A DNA stretch of 64,000 bases, from assembly GCF_000017545.1 (NCBI RefSeq), contig NC_009718.1, positions 62,001 through 126,000 on the forward strand. The letters are read 5' to 3'. Source of the DNA: Fervidobacterium nodosum Rt17-B1. GTDB lineage: Bacteria > Thermotogota > Thermotogae > Thermotogales > Fervidobacteriaceae. Below the pieces are notes generated by a model. That model saw only the letters and a program-made list of their open reading frames with translations. It ran no database searches and was not told the origin of the DNA. How positions within the stretch are numbered: the first letter of the stretch is position 1; every line of letters begins with the position of its first letter. Position numbers and translations under genes: made by a program. This document shows, piece after piece, positions 10,266 to 26,125 of the stretch.

Positions 10266-11525
10266 CTATACATATACTCTCTCCGGTTCATATCTTGTCT
10301 TGCTTTTCACTAACTTGAATATTATCCTTATCATTTTCAATCCTATTGCTATCAATGCTTGTGTCTCTTTTAATGGATTTTTTTCTCTTTTCCTCAGTTT
10401 TAAATATTTTTCCATTATTTCACGGTTATGTCTTATCACCGTTTTTGCCATCAAGTATATTATTTTCCTCAGTAACGGCCGCCCTCTTTTTGTTATCCGC
10501 GTTTTTCCTTTGTGTTCTCCAGAACTTTCTTCGTACAGGTTCAATCCAGCTAATTTCCTTATTTGTTTCCAGCTTTTAAACCTGCTTAACCCTCCTGTCT
10601 CTCCTAATATCGTGGCTGTCATTACCGTTCCTATCCCTGGCACACTTTCTATATATTCCCCTTCTTCTGTTTCTTCTATCATTTTTTTCATCTCTTCTTC
10701 TAGCTCTTGAATTTGTCTTGTTAATAGCTCTATTTCTTCCAATAGCATCCTTAATTTCATTTTCGCACTTTTTTGCCCTGCTCTTACTCCTACCGATTCT
10801 CTCGCTGCTTCGTATATCTTCCGCGCCCTACTTTTCCAGTCTTTCCCCTTTGTCGATTCTTTCAATACACTTTCTATTTCTTCTACTCCAACTCTTAATA
10901 TCTCTTCCGGAAATGGATAGGTCTTTAATAATTTCATCGAACCTTCCGAAAATATGTTTTTGTATATCTTCTCATACTCAGGAAAGTATTCGTCTATTAT
11001 AGCTATTACAATATTTTTTGAATTTTTTCTCTTACTTACTAATTGTTCCCTTGTCGTGGTTAATACTTTTAACTCACTATACACATCATTTGATAAATGC
11101 ATATCGAAATATCTTCCATCTTTGATTAATTTGGCTATTAATCCTGCATCTTTCTTGTCATTTTTACTAGGTGAGTTATCATCAAATTCTTTGCTTTTCT
11201 TCACATGATATGGATTTACTCCAACAAGATAATTTACTTGCTCGTTAGATTTCATTTGCCAAGCTAAAACCTTCCAATAATGCCCTGATGGTTCCATGCC
11301 TAAGATTACGTTGTTTAACCCTTCCTTTTGCTTAATAATTCTTATTTTTTCCTCTAACATTTTAATACCATCTATGGTATTATTAATCTTGAAAGGGCTA
11401 ATCAAATCAATTCCACGATAATCAGTCATCCTAACCCAATGATTTCTTTTAGCAACATCAATACCGACAATTAGAGTGTCTTGAGAAATTCTTGAAACTT
11501 TTGGATTAACATACTTTTGTTCCAT
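10266..11525 (-). CDS. IS110-family transposase (DEDD recombinase)
   Basis: A 419-residue protein. The N-terminal RuvC-like DEDD domain shows GIDVAKRNHW (first Asp), LGMEPSGHYW (Glu) and DKKDAGLIA (two Asp). A coiled-coil linker lies around residues 250-290. The C-terminal Tnp_20 domain has VPGIGTVMTATILGE and the serine-bearing YEESSGEHKG...ITKRG. IS110 enzymes use a bridge RNA encoded in the element to choose target and donor. The ATG at 11525 is preceded by AGGAGGCGATACC, which lies in one arm of a 15-bp inverted repeat. Confidence 0.93.
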   Translation of the reverse strand: MEQKYVNPKVSRISQDTLIVGIDVAKRNHWVRMTDYRGIDLISPFKINNTIDGIKMLEEKIRIIKQKEGLNNVILGMEPSGHYWKVLAWQMKSNEQVNYLVGVNPYHVKKSKEFDDNSPSKNDKKDAGLIAKLIKDGRYFDMHLSNDVYSELKVLTTTREQLVSKRKNSKNIVIAIIDEYFPEYEKIYKNIFSEGSMKLLKTYPFPEEILRVGVEEIESVLKESTKGKDWKSRARKIYEAARESVGVRAGQKSAKMKLRMLLEEIELLTRQIQELEEEMKKMIEETEEGEYIESVPGIGTVMTATILGETGGLSRFKSWKQIRKLAGLNLYEESSGEHKGKTRITKRGRPLLRKIIYLMAKTVIRHNREIMEKYLKLRKREKNPLKETQALIAIGLKMIRIIFKLVKSKTRYEPERVYV

Positions 11526-15083: not shown

Positions 15084-15113
15084 TTGACAAATATGGGAGT
15101 TTTTTTGTATAAT
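15084..15113 (+). promoter_or_regulatory. consensus promoter of the lysine operon
   Basis: TTGACA at 15084-15089 and TATAAT at 15108-15113, both perfect, are separated by 18 bp. Transcription would start near 15120, about 38 bases before the leader ORF. Confidence 0.88.
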
Positions 15114-15157
15114 TTATCCAAAAGATTTAACACTTTTTGATAGGGAGTATTGAAGGT

Positions 15158-15271
15158 ATGGAATTAAAAAGTCAAGCAGACCTTTTAAACAATAATTTCA
15201 GCAAAATGAATAAGAAAGCTAAACGCAGCTGCCCGCTGGAAGGTGGTCAGCTTGCGTTTGGCATGGAATAA
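15158..15271 (+). CDS. candidate 37-residue leader peptide of the lysine operon
   Basis: A short ORF with AGGGAG ten bases before the ATG. It encodes five lysines, four of them in a cluster of seven codons (Lys codons at 15203, 15212, 15215 and 15221). The cluster ends eight bases before a segment (15231-15237) that can pair with the terminator's 5' arm. The stop codon at 15269-15271 lies in the loop of the inner hairpin. This is the geometry of amino-acid-specific transcription attenuation, here for lysine. It is a hypothesis from sequence; a ligand-binding leader without translation remains possible. Confidence 0.5.
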   Translation: MELKSQADLLNNNFSKMNKKAKRSCPLEGGQLAFGME

Positions 15272-15301
15272 ATAAACGCAAGTAAATCACCTAAAGCGGG
15301 C
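15231..15301 (+). promoter_or_regulatory. anti-terminator structure in lysine operon leader
   Basis: GCCCGCT (15231-15237) pairs with AGCGGGC (15295-15301), AGGTG (15241-15245) with CACCT (15288-15292), and CTTGCGTTT (15251-15259) with AAACGCAAG (15274-15282). The nested stems form one long hairpin that uses the same AGCGGGC as the terminator's 5' arm, so the two structures are mutually exclusive. Confidence 0.7.
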
Positions 15302-15330
15302 TACAGTTAAATCTGTAGCCCGCTTTTTTT
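15295..15330 (+). terminator. attenuator terminator before asd
   Basis: A perfect 12-bp stem AGCGGGCTACAG/CTGTAGCCCGCT with a six-base loop, followed by seven T residues. It lies between the promoter and asd, so it must be bypassed for expression of the operon. Confidence 0.9.
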
Positions 15331-15378: not shown

Positions 15379-16371
15379 ATGTTGAAGGTAGGTATTGTTG
15401 GTGCAACAGGTGCGGTTGGTAGAAACATGGTGGAAGTTTTGGAGAATTCCAAAGTGGAAATTTCAGAGATTAGGTTATTTGCTTCTGAAAGATCGTCTGG
15501 GCAGGTTATGAAATTTAGGGGTATGGAAGTTTTAGTTGAAAGGCTTACTCCAGATGCTATGAAAGAAGGCTTTGATTATTTACTATTTTCCGCTGGTTCA
15601 GATGTTTCGAAAGAATTCGCACCTATTGCGGCTGAAGCTGGGACAGTAGTTATCGATAATTCTTCGGCATTTAGGATGGTACCTGAGATTCCATTGGTTG
15701 TTCCTGAAATCAACGGTCATTTATTGAAAAATTACCAGGGAATAGTTGCAAATCCGAATTGTTCAACTATCCAGATGGTCCTGGCACTTTACAGAGTACA
15801 CGATAGATACCAACTCCACGAGATTTTTGTTTCTACGTACCAAGCAGTTTCAGGTGCAGGGTATAAGGCTATAAGAGAATACGAAGAACAACTTGCTGGT
15901 AGTAACCGTTATTCTGTTTTTGCGAGACAAATTGCGCATAATGTTATCCCACTTATTGGGAGTATAGTAGACGATATAACTCAAGAAGAATGGAAGATGA
16001 TAAATGAAACTAAAAAGATTTTAAACTCTCGTTCTGTGAATGTTTATCCTACAACGGTTAGAGTGCCTGTTAGGATAGGTCATTCTGAAAGTATTATTGC
16101 CAGAACCCTCTTTCCAATCATGTCAAAAGAAGATTTAATCGATACTATTTCAAGTGGTGAAGATGTCGTTGTTCACGAAGACATAGTTACACCAATCGAG
16201 GTTGAAAAGGATGATTACGTGCATGTAAGTAGAATAAGATTATTCGATGCTCATACATTTGGTGTATGGGTTGTCGCTGATAATCTTCGCGTTGGTGCTG
16301 CGACAAATGCCGTTAGAATTATGGAAAAGCATATTGAATTGAATAAAATATCCGTCAAGTCAGGCGAGTGA
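15379..16371 (+). CDS. asd: aspartate-semialdehyde dehydrogenase
   Basis: A 330-residue enzyme that reduces aspartyl phosphate to aspartate semialdehyde with NADPH, the branch point to lysine, threonine and methionine. The N-terminal nucleotide motif is GIVGATGAVGRNMVEVL. The catalytic cysteine is in VANPNCSTIQM and the substrate histidine in RIGHSES. It starts at the ATG after GGGAGGTTGGAGTT and is the first gene of the lysine operon, directly behind the attenuator. It overlaps the following gene region closely (stop at 16369-16371, next ATG at 16377). Confidence 0.95.
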   Translation: MLKVGIVGATGAVGRNMVEVLENSKVEISEIRLFASERSSGQVMKFRGMEVLVERLTPDAMKEGFDYLLFSAGSDVSKEFAPIAAEAGTVVIDNSSAFRMVPEIPLVVPEINGHLLKNYQGIVANPNCSTIQMVLALYRVHDRYQLHEIFVSTYQAVSGAGYKAIREYEEQLAGSNRYSVFARQIAHNVIPLIGSIVDDITQEEWKMINETKKILNSRSVNVYPTTVRVPVRIGHSESIIARTLFPIMSKEDLIDTISSGEDVVVHEDIVTPIEVEKDDYVHVSRIRLFDAHTFGVWVVADNLRVGAATNAVRIMEKHIELNKISVKSGE

Positions 16372-16376
16372 TTTTG

Positions 16377-17114
16377 ATGGATAAAAAATTAAAAATTTAC
16401 AAGTACAACGCTAACGGTAACACGTTTATATTAATAGATTGTCTGGATAACACTCTAGATGATTCTGAAAAGTCTGAAATAGTACTCAAAAGTGTTGAAA
16501 ATCGTGATGGGGCGATATTCGTTGAAAGGAATAACAATTTGTTTCATATGGATTATTTCAACAGAGATGGTAAAAGGGCGGCATTTTGCGGTAACGGTGC
16601 AAGAACGTTTGTTAATTATTTGAAGGAATACTATGGTTTAAGTGGAGAAGTTTTATTTTCAACAACTTCAGGGATGTTAAAGGCATTAGTTGATGAGGAT
16701 GTATCTGTTCAAATGCCCAATCCAAAATATGTAAAACAAATATCTTACGAAAGTTTTCAAGGAGCTCTTATCGAAACAGGTGTTCCACACATCGTGATAC
16801 GAGTTGAAAATGTAGATTTTATAGATATTGAAAATGTGGCACCTGAAATTCGAAGGATTTTTGATGCAAATGTTAATTTTTACGATGTAGTTCAAGAGAA
16901 ATTTCTTAGGGTAAGAACTTTTGAACGCGGTGTAGAGCGCGAGACAAAATCTTGTGGTTCTGGAATTACTTCAACGTCGTTTTATTATAAGTATTACATT
17001 TTAAAAGATGGTAAACAGCCTGATGAAATCAAAGTTTTGTCACTTGGTGGTGTGTTGCATGTTTTGTTTAAAGAGAATGAGGTTTATCTTGAAGGGAGGG
17101 TCGAACATGAGTGA
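16377..17114 (+). CDS. dapF: diaminopimelate epimerase
   Basis: A 245-residue enzyme converting LL- to meso-diaminopimelate by a two-base cysteine mechanism. Both active-site cysteines are visible, in FCGNGARTF and KSCGSGITS, along with the N-terminal NGNTF motif. I chose the ATG at 16377, eight bases after AGGCGAG; a GTG at 16368 is in frame but has a poorer ribosome site. The enzyme is slightly shorter than typical (about 270). Its 3' end overlaps dapA by eight bases. It supplies meso-DAP for peptidoglycan and lysine. Confidence 0.93.
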   Translation: MDKKLKIYKYNANGNTFILIDCLDNTLDDSEKSEIVLKSVENRDGAIFVERNNNLFHMDYFNRDGKRAAFCGNGARTFVNYLKEYYGLSGEVLFSTTSGMLKALVDEDVSVQMPNPKYVKQISYESFQGALIETGVPHIVIRVENVDFIDIENVAPEIRRIFDANVNFYDVVQEKFLRVRTFERGVERETKSCGSGITSTSFYYKYYILKDGKQPDEIKVLSLGGVLHVLFKENEVYLEGRVEHE

Positions 17115-18021
17115 AAATGGATTAAAGATTCGTGGTTTTGATATGTTTACAGGCGTAGGCACAGCAATTGTGACACCGTTTAGTAATGGTGAGGTTGATT
17201 ATGGTTCGTACGAAAAGTTAGTCCGATGGCAGATTGAATCGGGGGTTAAAGCTATCGTTGTTGCAGGGACAACCGGTGAAGGAGTAACATTGACTGTTGA
17301 GGAACGTGAAAAACTTGTGGCTTTGACAAAGCAAATCTGTGAGGGAAAAGCGCAAGTTATAGTTGGTACGGGAACAAACGATACTCGTAAGACGTTAGAA
17401 CTTTCCTTGAGTGCTGAGAAATCGGGAGCAGATGCACTGTTAATTGTTACACCGTATTACAACAAACCAACACAGGAGGGGTTATACGCACATTATAAAT
17501 ACTTATCTGAACGTTTATCTAAGCCAATAATAATTTACAATGTTCCAAGTAGAACAGGTGTAAACATCTCACCCGAGACGGTTGCAAGACTCGCAAGTGA
17601 CTGTAAAAACATAGTGGCGATAAAAGAGGCAAACACTGATGTCAATCAAGCCGATGAAATATACAGACTAACCAATGGTGATTTTTACATATACTCTGGG
17701 AATGATGATAGAGCTTTTCATATGATATGCGCCGGTGCAAAAGGTGTTATTTCAGTGGCTTCAAACATTATTCCAGAACAGATGGTAGAATTAGCAAATA
17801 AAACTCTTCAAAATGACGTTGTCACAGCTAGGAATATTCATTTCAAATACTTAGAACTTATGAAGGTTCTCTTCGTAGAGACTAATCCAATTCCGGTAAA
17901 AGCTGCTTTAAATTTGCTTGGAATAATTAAAAATGAACTCAGATTACCACTTGTTCCAGCAAAACAATCAACTGTAGAGCTTTTGGAAAAAGTTATGAAG
18001 AAAGTTGGTGTATTATCATGA
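17107..18021 (+). CDS. dapA: 4-hydroxy-tetrahydrodipicolinate synthase
   Basis: A 304-residue TIM-barrel aldolase that condenses pyruvate with aspartate semialdehyde, the first committed lysine step. Visible motifs are AGTTGEG, TPYYNKPTQEG with the catalytic Tyr, and the Schiff-base Lys in IVAIKEANTD. The ATG at 17107 follows GGGAGGG; a frame extension to 17008 exists but lies inside dapF and has no ribosome site. Often feedback-inhibited by lysine, though this cannot be judged from sequence alone. Confidence 0.95.
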   Translation: MSENGLKIRGFDMFTGVGTAIVTPFSNGEVDYGSYEKLVRWQIESGVKAIVVAGTTGEGVTLTVEEREKLVALTKQICEGKAQVIVGTGTNDTRKTLELSLSAEKSGADALLIVTPYYNKPTQEGLYAHYKYLSERLSKPIIIYNVPSRTGVNISPETVARLASDCKNIVAIKEANTDVNQADEIYRLTNGDFYIYSGNDDRAFHMICAGAKGVISVASNIIPEQMVELANKTLQNDVVTARNIHFKYLELMKVLFVETNPIPVKAALNLLGIIKNELRLPLVPAKQSTVELLEKVMKKVGVLS

Positions 18022-18665
18022 AATACGGAGTTATTGGTGCCAACGGGAAGATGGGAAGAGAGATAATAGATTATTTTTCAAGTATAGGTGATGAGCTGGT
18101 CATGAAAATAGATATTGGTTTAGAAGAAATAGTAGATAGACCAGATGTAATAATAGATTTTTCAAATAGGTCAGCGCTTGATAAAACTATTGAACTATGC
18201 CAGAAATTTTCATGCCCACTTGTGATAGGTACAACTGCTTTAACAGGCGAAGATTTCGATAGGTTAAGAGAGTTATCAAATATTGTTCCTGTCGTTCAAA
18301 GTTATAACTTTTCGCAAGGTATAGCTATTTTGAAATCTATTTTGGAAAGTTTTGGTAAATACTTTTCAGATTGGGATGGTGCTATAGTCGAGATTCATCA
18401 CAATCAAAAGAAAGACGCACCTTCAGGAACAGCGATAATGCTAAAGAACTCTCTGAGTCGTGAAATACCTATAAGCTCTCTAAGAATAGGTGGTGTTTTT
18501 GGTGAACATGTAGTTATATTTTCAAACGCTGGAGAAGTTATAGAAATAAAGCACACAGCTTTATCAAGGAGGGCATTTTCTTTAGGTGTTAGAAAAGCAG
18601 CATTGTTTGCCTTGGAAAAAAATAAGGGTTTTTATTCATACTCAGATGTTTTAAATGAATTTTAG
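18018..18665 (+). CDS. dapB: 4-hydroxy-tetrahydrodipicolinate reductase
   Basis: A 215-residue NAD(P)H-dependent reductase of the lysine pathway. It has the Rossmann motif GVIGANGKMGREI and the substrate-binding signature EIHHNQKKDAPSGTA. The protein is compact, shorter than the roughly 270 residues of the E. coli enzyme but usual for Thermotogales. Its start overlaps the dapA stop by ATGA, indicating translational coupling. Confidence 0.94.
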   Translation: MKYGVIGANGKMGREIIDYFSSIGDELVMKIDIGLEEIVDRPDVIIDFSNRSALDKTIELCQKFSCPLVIGTTALTGEDFDRLRELSNIVPVVQSYNFSQGIAILKSILESFGKYFSDWDGAIVEIHHNQKKDAPSGTAIMLKNSLSREIPISSLRIGGVFGEHVVIFSNAGEVIEIKHTALSRRAFSLGVRKAALFALEKNKGFYSYSDVLNEF

Positions 18666-18686
18666 ACAAAAAATGGGGGAATGAAT

Positions 18687-19436
18687 ATGGCTGATATATC
18701 CAATAAGAAGGTAAGTGAATTAACCAGTGAAGAGATAATACAACTCATAGCTAACAGTAAGAAGAAAACCATAGTTAGAGTTTACGTAAGTGGTAACTTA
18801 AAGGCTTTGGATATTCGTGATTTCGAAGGATACGGTAAAGAATTTGAGTTTGTTGGTGGTCAAGATTTTGGTGTGCTTTTTGGAAATTACGAATATATAA
18901 AAGAAATACTCCGAAACAATTCAATCACTTCTTTTAAAGTTGAATACATAGCACATAATTCGGCTATACCACTTTCCGATATTTCAAAATTTAACGCTCG
19001 AATAGAGCCTGGCGCGATAATTCGTGAATATGTTGAAATAGGTAATAACGCAGTTATTATGATGGGTGCGGTAATTAATTTGGGAGCTATCATTGGTGAA
19101 GGTACAATGATTGACATGAATACTGTTATTGGTGCAAGAGCAAGGATTGGAAAATATTGTCACATTGGTGCTGGGAGTGTTATCGCCGGGGTTGTTGAAC
19201 CACCAAGTGCTCAACCAGTGATTATAGAAGATAACGTTGTAATAGGTGCAAATGCGGTCATTTTAGAAGGTGTAAGGGTTGGTGAACACTCCGTTGTTGC
19301 GGCTGGTGCGGTCGTTGTTGAAGATGTTCCACCTTACACGGTGGTTGCGGGTGTTCCAGCAAAAGTAATTAAAAAAGTTGATGAAAAAACTATAAGTAAA
19401 ACACAGCTCATCGAAGAATTAAGAAAATTGAGGTGA
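18687..19436 (+). CDS. dapH: tetrahydrodipicolinate N-acetyltransferase
   Basis: A 249-residue protein with an alpha/beta N-terminal domain and a left-handed beta-helix built from hexapeptide repeats ([19 protein letters not shown] and following turns), ending in [16 protein letters not shown]. It N-acetylates tetrahydrodipicolinate using acetyl-CoA, which defines the acetylase variant of the DAP pathway. I took the second ATG (18687), six bases after GGGGGA; the first ATG at 18681 would sit directly on the ribosome site. Confidence 0.92.
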
Positions 19437-19442
19437 GGAATA

Positions 19443-20645
19443 GTGAGGGTAGTTGTACAAAAATATGGAGGTTCTTCGGTTGCTGATACGGATAGAATAA
19501 AGAATGTTGCTAATAGAATTGCCAAAAAAGTTCAAGAAGGGTACAAAGTTGTGTCAGTTATTTCAGCTATGGGGAAGACAACAGACCAGCTTATAAACCT
19601 TGCCAAATCACTTTCGCAAAGGCCTGATGAAAGAGAATTAGATATGCTCCTTGTAACTGGTGAACAAGTTTCGTGTGCCCTTGTTGCAATTACTTTAAAA
19701 GATATTGGTATAAACGCAATATCACTAAACGCATTCCAAGCGAAGATATTAACCACAAAACACCATACAAACGCAAGGATAATGGATATAAGTGTTTCTC
19801 ATTTAAGAGAATATTTGAAAGAATACGACGTAATTGTTGTTACCGGATTTCAGGGGGTTACAGAAGATGGTCACTTCACAACACTCGGTCGCGGTGGATC
19901 GGATACTTCTGCAGTTGCTCTAGCTGCGAAATTAAAGTGCGATTGTGAGATTTACAGTGATGTTGTTGGTGTCTATTCGTGTGACCCAAGGTTATATCCG
20001 AATGCAAAGAAATGGGATTATATAACCTATGATGATATGCTTGAACTTGCCGCGACTGGCGCAAAAGTCCTTCACTCAAGGTCTGTTGAAATAGCAAAAA
20101 AGTATAATGTAAAAATTTACTGTGCTTCTTCATTTTCACAGGAGGAGGGAACGTGGGTGGTTGACAGATTACCAGAATGGCTTGAAGAGCCTGTTGTAAC
20201 GGGTGTAAGTTTGGATAGAAATCAGATGAAAGTTTCAATTATGGATTTACCAAACGAAGCCACGGTTATCGCCGATATATTCAAAAGAGTTGCCGATAAA
20301 GGCATAAATGTAGATATGATTTCACTTGTTAAGAACGGTTCATCAACACATGTTTCTTTTACGGTTGTGCCCGATGGTGTTGGAAAGATTGAAGAGCTAT
20401 TGAACGAAACACTTTCGGTCTATGGTGCGAAGTATCATTTTTACGGACAATTTGCAAAGATAACGGTTGTTGGTACTGGTATGAGGTCAAGTTACGGTGT
20501 TGCATCAAAACTTTTGGAAGTATTGCAAAGTGAGCAAGTAGAACCAGAATTAATAACGACATCCGAGATAAAGATATCAGTTCTTGTTCCGGAAGATAAA
20601 GCTGAGATGCTCGTTAAAAAAATCTGTGAGGCGTTTGAATTGTAA
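19443..20645 (+). CDS. lysC: aspartate kinase
   Basis: A 400-residue enzyme phosphorylating aspartate, the first step of the aspartate family. It carries KYGGSSVAD, the nucleotide/aspartate site GRGGSDTSAVAL, and two C-terminal ACT domains (from about residue 265) that normally bind lysine or threonine as feedback inhibitors. The start is GTG after GAGGTGAGGAATA. It lies in the lysine operon between dapH and an aminotransferase. Confidence 0.95.
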   Translation: MRVVVQKYGGSSVADTDRIKNVANRIAKKVQEGYKVVSVISAMGKTTDQLINLAKSLSQRPDERELDMLLVTGEQVSCALVAITLKDIGINAISLNAFQAKILTTKHHTNARIMDISVSHLREYLKEYDVIVVTGFQGVTEDGHFTTLGRGGSDTSAVALAAKLKCDCEIYSDVVGVYSCDPRLYPNAKKWDYITYDDMLELAATGAKVLHSRSVEIAKKYNVKIYCASSFSQEEGTWVVDRLPEWLEEPVVTGVSLDRNQMKVSIMDLPNEATVIADIFKRVADKGINVDMISLVKNGSSTHVSFTVVPDGVGKIEELLNETLSVYGAKYHFYGQFAKITVVGTGMRSSYGVASKLLEVLQSEQVEPELITTSEIKISVLVPEDKAEMLVKKICEAFEL

Positions 20646-20677
20646 AATTTAACATAAAATGACAGGGAGTGAGTTAC

Positions 20678-21811
20678 GTGAGCTATATCGCCAATACTTA
20701 CAATCGCTATCCGATGAAAATATCACGAGGAAAAGGCATATACCTTTGGGATGATAGAGGGAATCAATACATCGACACATTTATGGGCATTGGTGTTCTG
20801 CTCTTTGGACATAACCATGAGAAGGTAATAGATGCAATGAAACGTAAAATGGAAAGGTATGTCCATTTATCAAACTTTTTCTTAGACGAAGATGCGGAGT
20901 TTATCGCTGAAAGATTAGTAAAAGAGACCAAAAAAGATGGAAGAGTTTTTTTCACAAATTCTGGAGCAGAGAGTACAGAATGTGCTTTAAAAATTATAAG
21001 AAAAGTTCGTAAAAGTGGGAAAATAGTTTCATTTGATAAGAATTTTCACGGTAGGACGATGAAAGCTTTGAGTGTAACAGGTTTCCCGAACATAAGAGAA
21101 CAGTTTGTCAATGACCAAGATGTTGTATTCTTGCCATATGATAATGATACCGTTACCAATTTTTTTGAAAGAGAAAGTGACATCGCAGCGGTATTTGTAG
21201 AAGTTATTCACGGTAGCGGAGGTCTTGATGTGATACCTAACGATATTTTAAATATCATATCTCGATACAAAAAAGAGAAAGGATTTATACTTGTAGTAGA
21301 CGAAGTCCAGAGCGGTTTAGGAAGAACTGGGAAATTCTATGCATACCAGCATTTTGACGTAGAACCGGATATCGTAACTTTGGCAAAGGGAATTGGTGGT
21401 GGGGTACCTTTAGGTGCATGTATTATGCTTGGTGAGTACGCGGATGTACTAAATAAAGGTGAACACGGTTCGACGTTTGCACCTAACCCTGTAGCTTTAG
21501 CTGGCGGAAGAGCTGTACTTGAGATGATTGATGAAAAGTTATTGGCACATGTTGAAAAAATGGGAGAGTTATTCGAAGAAAAATTCAAAAGTTTAAGTTT
21601 TGTTAGCTCAGTGAAAGGAATGGGACTTATGAGAGGTATTTCATTAGCCAAAAACAATGTATTAAAAGCGGAGGTATTTTTAGAACATGGACTTTTAGTA
21701 AATATACTTGGAAATGGGACTATAAGATTTCTATTACCATTGAATATAAATGAGGAAGAAATTGAAGAAGTATCTTTAAAATTCAAAAAAGCCTTATCGC
21801 AATTACAATAG
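20678..21811 (+). CDS. class III aminotransferase, probable N-acetyl-LL-diaminopimelate aminotransferase
   Basis: A 377-residue fold-type I PLP enzyme of the ArgD group: TNSGAESTECALK, VDEVQSGLGRTG, and the Schiff-base Lys in TLAKGIGGGVPLGA. ArgD-type enzymes act on N-acetylornithine and often on N-acyl-DAP precursors. Its place at the end of the lysine operon, between an acetyltransferase and an M20 deacetylase on the facing operon, suggests it makes N-acetyl-LL-DAP. I chose the GTG at 20678, eight bases after AGGGAG. Its 3' end overlaps the convergent ecfT by 29 bp. Confidence 0.82.
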   Translation: MSYIANTYNRYPMKISRGKGIYLWDDRGNQYIDTFMGIGVLLFGHNHEKVIDAMKRKMERYVHLSNFFLDEDAEFIAERLVKETKKDGRVFFTNSGAESTECALKIIRKVRKSGKIVSFDKNFHGRTMKALSVTGFPNIREQFVNDQDVVFLPYDNDTVTNFFERESDIAAVFVEVIHGSGGLDVIPNDILNIISRYKKEKGFILVVDEVQSGLGRTGKFYAYQHFDVEPDIVTLAKGIGGGVPLGACIMLGEYADVLNKGEHGSTFAPNPVALAGGRAVLEMIDEKLLAHVEKMGELFEEKFKSLSFVSSVKGMGLMRGISLAKNNVLKAEVFLEHGLLVNILGNGTIRFLLPLNINEEEIEEVSLKFKKALSQLQ

Positions 21812-22547: not shown

Positions 22548-23593
22548 GATTTTGTTAACCAAAGGTATTGATAAATTTCAAAAACCATATTATCTTCTTA
22601 AATAGGGGACACCCCCCAATATACTCTCAATAAGGAGGTATCCCGATATGGTTAATGTCCAACTCAAATGCCCTCATTGTGGCTCTTCTAACTTCATCAA
22701 AAACGGTCATGATAAGTTCAAAAACCAAATCTTCTTTTGCAAAGACTGCAAGCGTTACTTTAAACTTTCTTTTACCAAAAAACACAAACTCTTCTCTTTC
22801 CCTTACCCTCGTTGTGTTCATTGTAACCATGTCATGGAAATTTACAAAATCCGCCGTTATTTCGTTCGTTTCAGATGCAGAAAGTGCAACTTCAAAACTT
22901 CTGTTCCGCTTTCTCTTCCTCAGCCTGTACCTTTCAACTTTCATCCCTTCAAATTCTTTCGTTTCCCTATCTATATCATTCTCAAAGCTTTCATCTTGTA
23001 CTTCAAATACAACCTTTCTCTTCGTGCTATTAAAGCTTGCTTGAATATCAATGTCTCTCATGTTGCTATTTACAAATGGATTATCAAGTTATCTTCTGTT
23101 ATTTCGCTTTTTGAGTTTGAGAATGTATTTAAAGTTCACGGTGATGAAACAGTTATTGTATTTCGAGACAAAAAGTACTATGTGTGGCTATTAGTTGAGC
23201 ATGGTACGAATTTAATAGTAGCTTGGCATGTATCAAGATATCGTGATATGTCACAAGTTAAGATATTGTTAGATAAATACTTTAGTCAAAGAAAACAAAA
23301 CACACAAATAGAGTTAATAACCGATGGACTAAAAGCGTACGAGATAGCAGTGAAACTAAATTTTGATAATGTTGAGCACAGAGAAGTAAGACTAGGTAAA
23401 AACAACGAATGTGAATCGAAATTTTCGTTATTTAAGATGTTTGTTAGAGCGAAAAGGAGCTTCAAGAAATTTAGCAACATACGGTACTATGTAAATGGTT
23501 TTTGTGTAGTAAGGAACCTATGCAAGTTATATGAGAACGAAAATGAGATGATTACAGCTTTAGCTTCCATCATCACTACTAGTTAACAGCATC
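22548..23593 (+). mobile_element. IS6-like insertion sequence, copy 1 (complete)
   Basis: A 1046-bp element bounded exactly by 8-bp target duplications TTTTTCAA (22540-22547 and 23594-23601). The ends are short imperfect inverted repeats beginning GAT..TGTTAAC. The 8-bp duplication agrees with the IS6 family. The element is about the same as copy 2 at 55710-56602 apart from an internal deletion there. It encodes one full-length transposase. Confidence 0.9.
22648..23586 (+). CDS. IS6/IS240-like DDE transposase
   Basis: A 312-residue protein starting after AAGGAGG. The N-terminus has two zinc-ribbon pairs (CPHCGSSN...CKDCKRY and CVHC...CRKCNF), then a helix-turn-helix (LSLRAIKACLNINVSHVAIY), then the DDE core: Asp in VHGDETV, Asp in ITDGLKAY, Glu in NNECESKF. 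The domain resembles the IS240 group. It is complete and probably active. A long antisense frame across the N-terminal part is a codon-composition artefact. Confidence 0.85.
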   Translation: MVNVQLKCPHCGSSNFIKNGHDKFKNQIFFCKDCKRYFKLSFTKKHKLFSFPYPRCVHCNHVMEIYKIRRYFVRFRCRKCNFKTSVPLSLPQPVPFNFHPFKFFRFPIYIILKAFILYFKYNLSLRAIKACLNINVSHVAIYKWIIKLSSVISLFEFENVFKVHGDETVIVFRDKKYYVWLLVEHGTNLIVAWHVSRYRDMSQVKILLDKYFSQRKQNTQIELITDGLKAYEIAVKLNFDNVEHREVRLGKNNECESKFSLFKMFVRAKRSFKKFSNIRYYVNGFCVVRNLCKLYENENEMITALASIITTS

Positions 23594-25015: not shown

Positions 25016-26125
25016 TTAATGAATGCTTACCTGAGATAATTCTATTAGCCATTTTACCATAAAATCAACCAAAAATGGAATAACCTCATCCGATGGGAGG
25101 AACTTGGGATTATGTAATCCGTATTGGATATCGTTAGTTCTCACTCCTGCCCAGAACATCAGTGATGGATATTTCATGGTGAAAAATCCAAAATCCTCCC
25201 CTGTGTATTTCATACCACAATCTATAAAGTTTAATCCAGATTTCGACACGAAATCGCGGAATTTCTCAACAAGTTTGCTATTGTTTACGACAGGTGGATA
25301 TAAGCTCCCTTTTTCTATCGTTCCATTATATTTTTGTGCATTTTGTGATATCTTTTCAAATGTTTGAAGGACTATTTCAAGTGTCTCGCCCCTAATGGAG
25401 CCTTGAACTTCTGAGTAATCTGCAACGGCGTTTCTTACATTTCCAGCAAACATTTTTCCAAAACCAGTCAAAACTCTTTTTCCATATTCGTTGGTATCGA
25501 TGTTTGAATGATAAAACTCATGTAGGAATTCTACAGCATGTTTTAACGCATCTATTCCTCTATGTTTTTGAGCAATATGTGCAGATAAACCTTTGAATTT
25601 TGCCGTAATTTCCATAGCACATGCGAACAGTGTACCTTCAGTTGAAGCGAACTCCCCAAGCTTGTACTCATCAGTTACATGGAGTGCTGTTGCGTATTTT
25701 ACTTTGTATTTTTCTCGCATCTCATCGATAACGTACTTTGCGCCACCTATTGTTTCTTCAGCAGGTTGAAAGACAAATACATAATTGCCTGGAATATCTT
25801 TTTCAACTATCTCCTTTATAACTCCATACATAATCGCCATGTGTATATCATGACCACATGCATGCATATTTCCATTTGTTGATGAAAACTCACATCCTGT
25901 TTCTTCAACTAGTGGAAGTGCGTCCATGTCAGCTCTGTACAATATCGAAGGTTTGGTTTTATCTTTCTCTATGTGGAGAATTAATCCCGTCTTTGCTATG
26001 ATAATAGGTCTTAACCCCAAAGATTCAAGAGACTGTATCAAGATGTTTTGTGTTTTATATTCATTAAAAGCTAATTCGGGATTGCTATGAAGCTTATGTC
26101 TGAGTTCGATAGGTGATATTGCCAT
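25016..26125 (-). CDS. M20-family amidohydrolase, probable N-acetyldiaminopimelate deacetylase
   Basis: A 369-residue zinc amidohydrolase. Metal and catalytic motifs: YRADMDALP, MHACGHDIHMA, and VFQPAEETIGGAK, with the later AHIAQKHRGIDA dimerisation region. The family includes N-acetyl-DAP deacetylase, hippurate hydrolase and IAA-amino acid hydrolase. Because the neighbouring facing operon has dapH and an ArgD-like aminotransferase but no deacetylase, I infer that this enzyme releases LL-DAP from N-acetyl-LL-DAP. Confidence 0.82.
   Translation of the reverse strand: MAISPIELRHKLHSNPELAFNEYKTQNILIQSLESLGLRPIIIAKTGLILHIEKDKTKPSILYRADMDALPLVEETGCEFSSTNGNMHACGHDIHMAIMYGVIKEIVEKDIPGNYVFVFQPAEETIGGAKYVIDEMREKYKVKYATALHVTDEYKLGEFASTEGTLFACAMEITAKFKGLSAHIAQKHRGIDALKHAVEFLHEFYHSNIDTNEYGKRVLTGFGKMFAGNVRNAVADYSEVQGSIRGETLEIVLQTFEKISQNAQKYNGTIEKGSLYPPVVNNSKLVEKFRDFVSKSGLNFIDCGMKYTGEDFGFFTMKYPSLMFWAGVRTNDIQYGLHNPKFLPSDEVIPFLVDFMVKWLIELSQVSIH

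Follow-up and report, generated by a model that had tools for sequence, protein, structure and literature searches.

A probable lysine-specific leader-peptide attenuator ahead of the lysine operon of Fervidobacterium nodosum, and related leaders in Thermotogota

The lysine operon and its leader

The window analysed here is a stretch of 64,000 nucleotides of the Fervidobacterium nodosum Rt17-B1 genome (contig NC_009718.1, positions 62,001 to 126,000). Behind an intrinsic terminator it carries genes that, judged by their profile matches, make up a lysine/diaminopimelate (DAP) operon using the acetylase branch (Table 1). The true start of dapA lies inside the ORF listed, near 17100. The ArgD-like aminotransferase stays below the cut-off of its profile (373 vs 410 bits), which assigns it at family level only; it is probably the aminotransferase of the N-acetyl-DAP branch. 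An M20-type amidohydrolase encoded outside the operon (25016-26125, minus strand) is a candidate for the N-acetyl-DAP deacetylase that would complete the branch. Transposase-like ORFs of insertion sequences (IS110-like; zinc-ribbon DDE type) flank the operon at 10266-11525 and 22648-23586.

Ahead of asd, the original prediction had described a perfect promoter and a 37-codon ORF with four Lys codons in a window of seven. Both are there: the promoter matches the consensus in all 12 positions, and the ORF runs to its stop at 15269. The Lys codons of this ORF are codons 4, 16, 19, 20 and 22, with four of the five falling among the seven codons from 16 to 22. At the Lys frequency of the neighbouring genes (7.1%), the probability of at least four Lys codons in a single window of this length is 7e-4.

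Table 1. Features of the leader and of the operon behind it (positions in the window)
Feature	Position	Strand	Details
Promoter	15084..15113	+	-35 TTGACA 15084-15089, N18, -10 TATAAT 15108-15113; 12/12 consensus matches
Shine-Dalgarno-like sequence of leader ORF	15143..15147	+	GGGAG
Leader peptide ORF	15158..15271	+	ATG 15158, TAA 15269-15271; 37 codons; MELKSQADLLNNNFSKMNKKAKRSCPLEGGQLAFGME
Control region	15203..15223	+	Lys codons 15203 (AAA), 15212 (AAG), 15215 (AAA), 15221 (AAA)
Hairpin 1:2 (anti-antiterminator/pause)	15218..15262	+	15218-15231 with 15248-15262; inner stem 15233-15237/15242-15246
Antiterminator 2:3	15231..15301	+	15231-15237/15295-15301, 15241-15247/15286-15292, 15250-15260/15273-15283
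Intrinsic terminator 3:4	15293..15330	+	14 bp, 15293-15306/15313-15326; T7 run 15324-15330
asd, aspartate-semialdehyde dehydrogenase, first gene of operon	15379..16371	+	NF011456 above cut-off
dapF, diaminopimelate epimerase	16368..17114	+	TIGR00652 above cut-off
dapA, 4-hydroxy-tetrahydrodipicolinate synthase	17008..18021	+	TIGR00674 above cut-off, match from residue 50
dapB, 4-hydroxy-tetrahydrodipicolinate reductase	18018..18665	+	TIGR00036 above cut-off
dapD-type tetrahydrodipicolinate N-acetyltransferase	18681..19436	+	TIGR03532 above cut-off
lysC, aspartate kinase	19443..20645	+	NF005154 above cut-off
ArgD-like aminotransferase	20669..21811	+	TIGR00707 below cut-off

Hairpins of the leader RNA

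The leader RNA folds at -68.1 kcal/mol, compared with a mean of -44.4 kcal/mol for its dinucleotide shuffles (z -5.6), a stability reached by 0 of 200 shuffles. Two mutually exclusive hairpins sharing AGCGGGC had been predicted, and both exist: this heptamer can pair with GCCCGCT (15231-15237), and it lies in the 5' arm of the terminator as well. The count was nonetheless too low, since a third hairpin, 1:2, had been overlooked; with it, the element is a complete three-hairpin attenuator. Likewise, the antiterminator pairing at 15231-15237 is confirmed, but it is only the outer helix of a structure that extends far beyond 7 bp; in this, three helices are stacked, and the loop holds the stop codon of the leader. 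Hairpin 1:2 is a plain hairpin with no conserved unpaired pocket.

At equilibrium, the complete RNA is predicted to fold with the terminator whatever the state of the ribosome. Before segment 4 has been made, 2:3 is preferred over 1:2 even without a ribosome, and masking the bases covered by a ribosome does not separate the on and off states, so that readthrough is not predicted by equilibrium alone. Since equilibrium always favours the terminator, the switch must act kinetically, and the outcome would depend on which events come first while the RNA is being made, the usual view of such attenuators.

Conservation in Fervidobacterium and its sister genus

The original prediction had proposed an alignment of asd leaders as its check. 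Among 20 genomes of the family there are nine asd leaders of the Fervidobacterium type, seven from one genus (g1) and two from another (g2). All nine keep the ORF and its frame, the Shine-Dalgarno sequence and start, the Lys cluster, the stop and the pairing; a fold that is kept while the ORF or the Lys codons are lost was not seen. The spacing is conserved as well, with the stop codon 54 nt past the first AAA of the core and the Shine-Dalgarno-linked start 57-78 nt 5' of the core in every leader, and in all nine the leader frame is the only one in which such a start opens into the core. The cluster itself is thinned to just two Lys codons in the seven-codon window of one leader (G005). The record Fervidobacterium sp. 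UBA5837 bears the same leader.

All three hairpins fold in each of the nine leaders. The peptide upstream of the core varies freely, as does the four-base loop of 1:2. The core is almost invariant down to the wobble positions of its codons, as its bases have to pair in either of two structures. In genus g2, the changes AGC to GGC and CTT to CCT alter two residues (S to G, L to P) and preserve the base pair. In the 3' half of the antiterminator the sequence drifts while complementarity stays, and the pairing surpasses that of linker shuffles with z-scores of -1.9 to -6.5 across the nine leaders.

A TTGACA -35 box with a TATAAT-like -10 box precedes eight of the nine leaders. The exception is the leader of genome G002 (L003), which has no TTGACA promoter at the usual distance upstream. 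About 350-450 bases upstream of asd in that genome, the opposite strand resembles the start of a transposase gene, and the leader promoter may have been lost or replaced through an insertion.

Lysine leaders in other families

Pattern searches added 13 Lys leaders that share this layout; they come from two other families and stand ahead of asd, dapA or dapD. In family f2, they precede dapA or dapD in 10 of 11 genomes. An asd leader from another family of the class (G021) has the same AAG AAA GCT AAA cluster, with most of its other sequence replaced and all three hairpins rebuilt, and this holds generally for the distant families: most of the RNA sequence has been exchanged, while the Lys cluster and the hairpin layout stay. 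When 103 Thermotogota genomes were searched for the terminator motif, 25 distinct palindromic places emerged, 22 of which are such leaders; the remaining three are ordinary gene-end terminators. Each Lys leader (22/22) has two to four Lys in seven codons, and a leader before hom (homoserine dehydrogenase) has Thr in four of seven. The Lys codons are 23 AAA and 5 AAG in the Fervidobacterium-type leaders and 2 AAA and 36 AAG in family f2; lysine has thus been kept through synonymous change.

The pairing was compared in a set of 23 leaders, namely the 22 from the motif search and one (G001) with an imperfect T-run; these leaders share ancestry, and counts across them are therefore not independent. 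The outer six pairs of hairpin 1:2 are paired in 94% of cells, and four of the six have changed on both sides. The outer seven pairs of the antiterminator are paired in 98% of cells (with a change from C-G to G-C in 10 leaders), and in this wider set, too, the structure scores better than linker shuffles. The eight pairs of the terminator are paired in 100%. At one position the bases of segments 2, 3 and 4 change together, a threefold covariation that reads C/G/C in 13 leaders and G/C/G in 10, without exception among the 23. Such a base, which has to fit first one partner and then another, gives direct evidence of alternative pairing.

A covariance model trained on these 23 leaders picked up two more Lys leaders in a fourth family (f8), before aspartokinase and with the peptide KKQVKYSPGG. 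A possible dapF leader in genome G082 has one Lys in the seven codons. Weak matches of the model in gene-end terminators (L275, L277, L279, L280, L285 and others) were rejected on inspection. A DNA-pattern scan of GTDB contigs returned two Thermotogota records and 19 matches in unrelated, mostly actinobacterial or proteobacterial contigs, and these 19 were judged to be chance.

Leaders with codons for other amino acids

Genome G076 contains three copies of the scaffold: before dapA (Lys), before dapD (Lys) and before homoserine dehydrogenase (Thr-Thr-Thr-Thr). The Thr and dapA leaders share 74% identity. Its arm reads ACAAGC/GCTTGT in place of the AAGCGC/GCGCTT of the Lys copy, so that the pairing has been compensated alongside the codons. 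Such paralogous Lys and Thr copies in one genome amount to a natural codon-swap experiment, in which the evolution and re-targeting of attenuators become directly testable. A simple scan found no leaders directly before ilvB, and none before hom outside G076.

A second group of leaders provides leads outside the main claim. In family f10, peptides ending in INWWWHL or RNWWWHL stand before trpE together with terminators (L235-L239), and by their sequence these are trp attenuators. An inspection of the DNA upstream of trpE and aspartokinase gave these leaders and the f7 ones below; the covariance model led to the others, among them a WWWW leader before trpB in genome G010. Leaders of the form RKGYMMMR..PPKLGG precede an aspartokinase(-asd) operon in family f7 (L293, L296), with a possible antiterminator, and perhaps represent a methionine attenuator. 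Aromatic clusters (YFYFYW, YYFWY, YGFWY, FSFF) occur before genes for TrpX-like ABC binding proteins in f7 and f10 (L278, L283, L284, L286). In family f2, K-H-Y-N-R or K-H-H-x-[KR] leaders (L271-L274) precede a family 3 binding protein whose nearest relatives are lysine/arginine/ornithine transporters, and these leaders possibly sense several basic residues at once. In the shuffle test, support for structure was good for the trpB leader, the f7 and f8 aspartokinase leaders and L286, and weak or absent for L273, L274, L283 and L284.

Taken together, it seems rather likely that ribosome-mediated attenuation is a general control mode of the phylum. The attenuators of Thermotogota would then form a modular family: a single scaffold would have been duplicated from operon to operon, and its target changed by joint exchange of the control codons and the opposite pairing arm (from Lys to Thr or the reverse in G076). 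The Lys version would replace the lysine riboswitch in Fervidobacterium and other families, and separate leaders with this layout would respond to Trp, Met, aromatic or basic codons ahead of the corresponding biosynthesis or transport genes.

Exchange with the lysine riboswitch

Does a known RNA family explain the leader? Rfam searches of the window at gathering and permissive thresholds returned only a tRNA and chance matches, and the T-box model gave no match above its gathering threshold in the window or in related leaders. The lysine riboswitch (RF00168) has no match in the window or anywhere in the genome; the same search finds that of T. maritima. It is found in 57 of the 103 Thermotogota genomes and in none of the 22 with a Lys leader. 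The hypergeometric probability of this exclusion is 5e-10, a figure overstated by the relatedness of the genomes; the pattern is clean at the level of families and genera. In nine genomes of Thermosipho-like relatives (genera g3-g5), RF00168 sits upstream of asd in the place of the Lys leader. On this comparison, the Lys leader appears to take the riboswitch's place in Fervidobacterium and in other families.

Proposed mechanism

The element is very probably a lysine-specific, ribosome-mediated transcription attenuator of the trp/his type. Between its promoter and its terminator lies a translatable short ORF with a cluster of cognate codons; the RNA has three mutually exclusive hairpins, of which 3:4 is an intrinsic terminator, and the geometry of stall and stop is a fitting one. 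The original prediction of a lysine leader-peptide attenuator is thus supported by the comparative data across families. From analogy with known attenuators and from the match between codons and genes, we infer translation of the leader, lysine as the signal, and the direction in which the operon responds.

A ribosome would follow RNA polymerase, translating the leader as it is transcribed. If charged Lys-tRNA runs short, the ribosome would stall at 15212/15215, covering the 5' arm of 1:2 and freeing segment 2 (15231-15260), which could then pair with 15273-15301 and sequester AGCGGGC, the 5' arm of the terminator. With the antiterminator formed, transcription would proceed into asd-dapF-dapA-dapB-dapD-lysC-aminotransferase. 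When lysine is plentiful, the ribosome would reach the stop at 15269 and block 2:3, the terminator would form, and transcription would end. In the absence of translation, hairpin 1:2 would form first, followed by the terminator. That the stop is placed to disrupt the antiterminator, as had been predicted, fits its position in the 2:3 loop. The companion claim, that a stall at the Lys cluster leaves 15231-15237 free, holds for stalls at 15212/15215 but not for the last Lys codon, 15221, where the ribosome (with the footprint that is generally assumed) would cover part of 15231-15234. An attenuator of this type requires the coupling of transcription and translation in a thermophile.

Alternative explanations

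The strong conservation of the peptide within Fervidobacterium could suggest a nascent-peptide sensor, in which KAKRSCPLxGGQLAF, inside the exit tunnel, binds lysine or some other metabolite and stalls the ribosome in the manner of TnaC and SpeFL. This is very unlikely, since what is conserved is the nucleotide sequence, even at wobble positions, and double pairing accounts for that. The two substitutions in genus g2 occur exactly where the RNA pair is thereby kept, and other families retain Lys codons and hairpins with different peptides (KKCNRPVICGG, KKAKHSRLVIFKGG, KKQVKYSPGG). In the Thr copy, Thr codons have taken over from the Lys codons altogether. A peptide conserved independently of codon pairing, as in an arrest leader, is not what is found. 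Slightly less credible again is a new ligand-binding riboswitch in which the ORF is incidental: a long, conserved and structured leader ending in a terminator, at a place that a riboswitch occupies in relatives, would suit it, but there is no Rfam match at the gathering threshold, and 1:2 does not have the conserved unpaired pocket. Nor would an incidental ORF be expected to conserve its Shine-Dalgarno sequence, start and Lys codons, or to exchange these for Thr codons before a threonine-pathway gene.

That a T-box sensing tRNA, or some other trans-acting factor such as r-protein L20, controls the terminator is more improbable still. The T-box has no match in the window or in related leaders. 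L20_leader is the best sub-threshold Rfam match (26 bits against a cut-off of 58.7), but this weak match rests on the terminator, and the genes downstream are lysine genes rather than rplT. Least probable of all is a chance Lys-rich ORF over an ordinary terminator. Lys codons are indeed frequent in AT-rich DNA; even so, the cluster is improbable at the local Lys frequency (the 7e-4 given above) and has been kept through AAA/AAG changes in several families, and 22 of the 25 terminators of this motif in the 103 genomes lie behind such leaders. By these comparisons the chance reading is already refuted, and a lysine-specific attenuator remains the preferred one.

Relation to known systems

The textbook examples of leader-peptide attenuation are mostly attenuators for Trp, His, Thr, Leu, Ile/Val and Phe from Proteobacteria and Actinobacteria, and lysine genes had been taken to rely on the L-box riboswitch, which is also how the open-access literature describes the control of lysine operons. 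The open-access papers searched gave neither a Lys leader nor a leader-peptide attenuator in Thermotogota; a survey of attenuators across bacteria (Lopatovskaya 2010) might list some of those described here. A survey of Actinobacteria found no lysine leader (PMC1262725), and the lysine riboswitch has been described as present in most Thermotogales (PMC3766115). A precedent for the exchange of sensors comes from Firmicutes, in which T-boxes are swapped for leader peptides (PMC2965389). A lysine attenuator that replaces a riboswitch in thermophiles suggests that the signal sensed at the same gene has shifted from the free amino acid to charged tRNA.

Compared with the lysine riboswitch (L-box, RF00168), the F. 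nodosum leader would control the same gene, asd, in the role that the riboswitch has in Thermosipho-like relatives. On the other hand, it contains no aptamer, and its signal would be charged tRNA-Lys read by the ribosome instead of free lysine. The trpL-type Trp leaders occur in the same phylum (WWW before trpE in family f10, WWWW before trpB in G010), but they read another residue and are built on another scaffold. With the trp, his, thr, leu, ilv and phe attenuators, the element shares the promoter, the short ORF with cognate codons, the 1:2, 2:3 and 3:4 hairpins, the T-run, a stop codon placed to block 2:3, and a biosynthetic operon behind. It differs from them in its residue, which is lysine, and in its phylum, which is Thermotogota.
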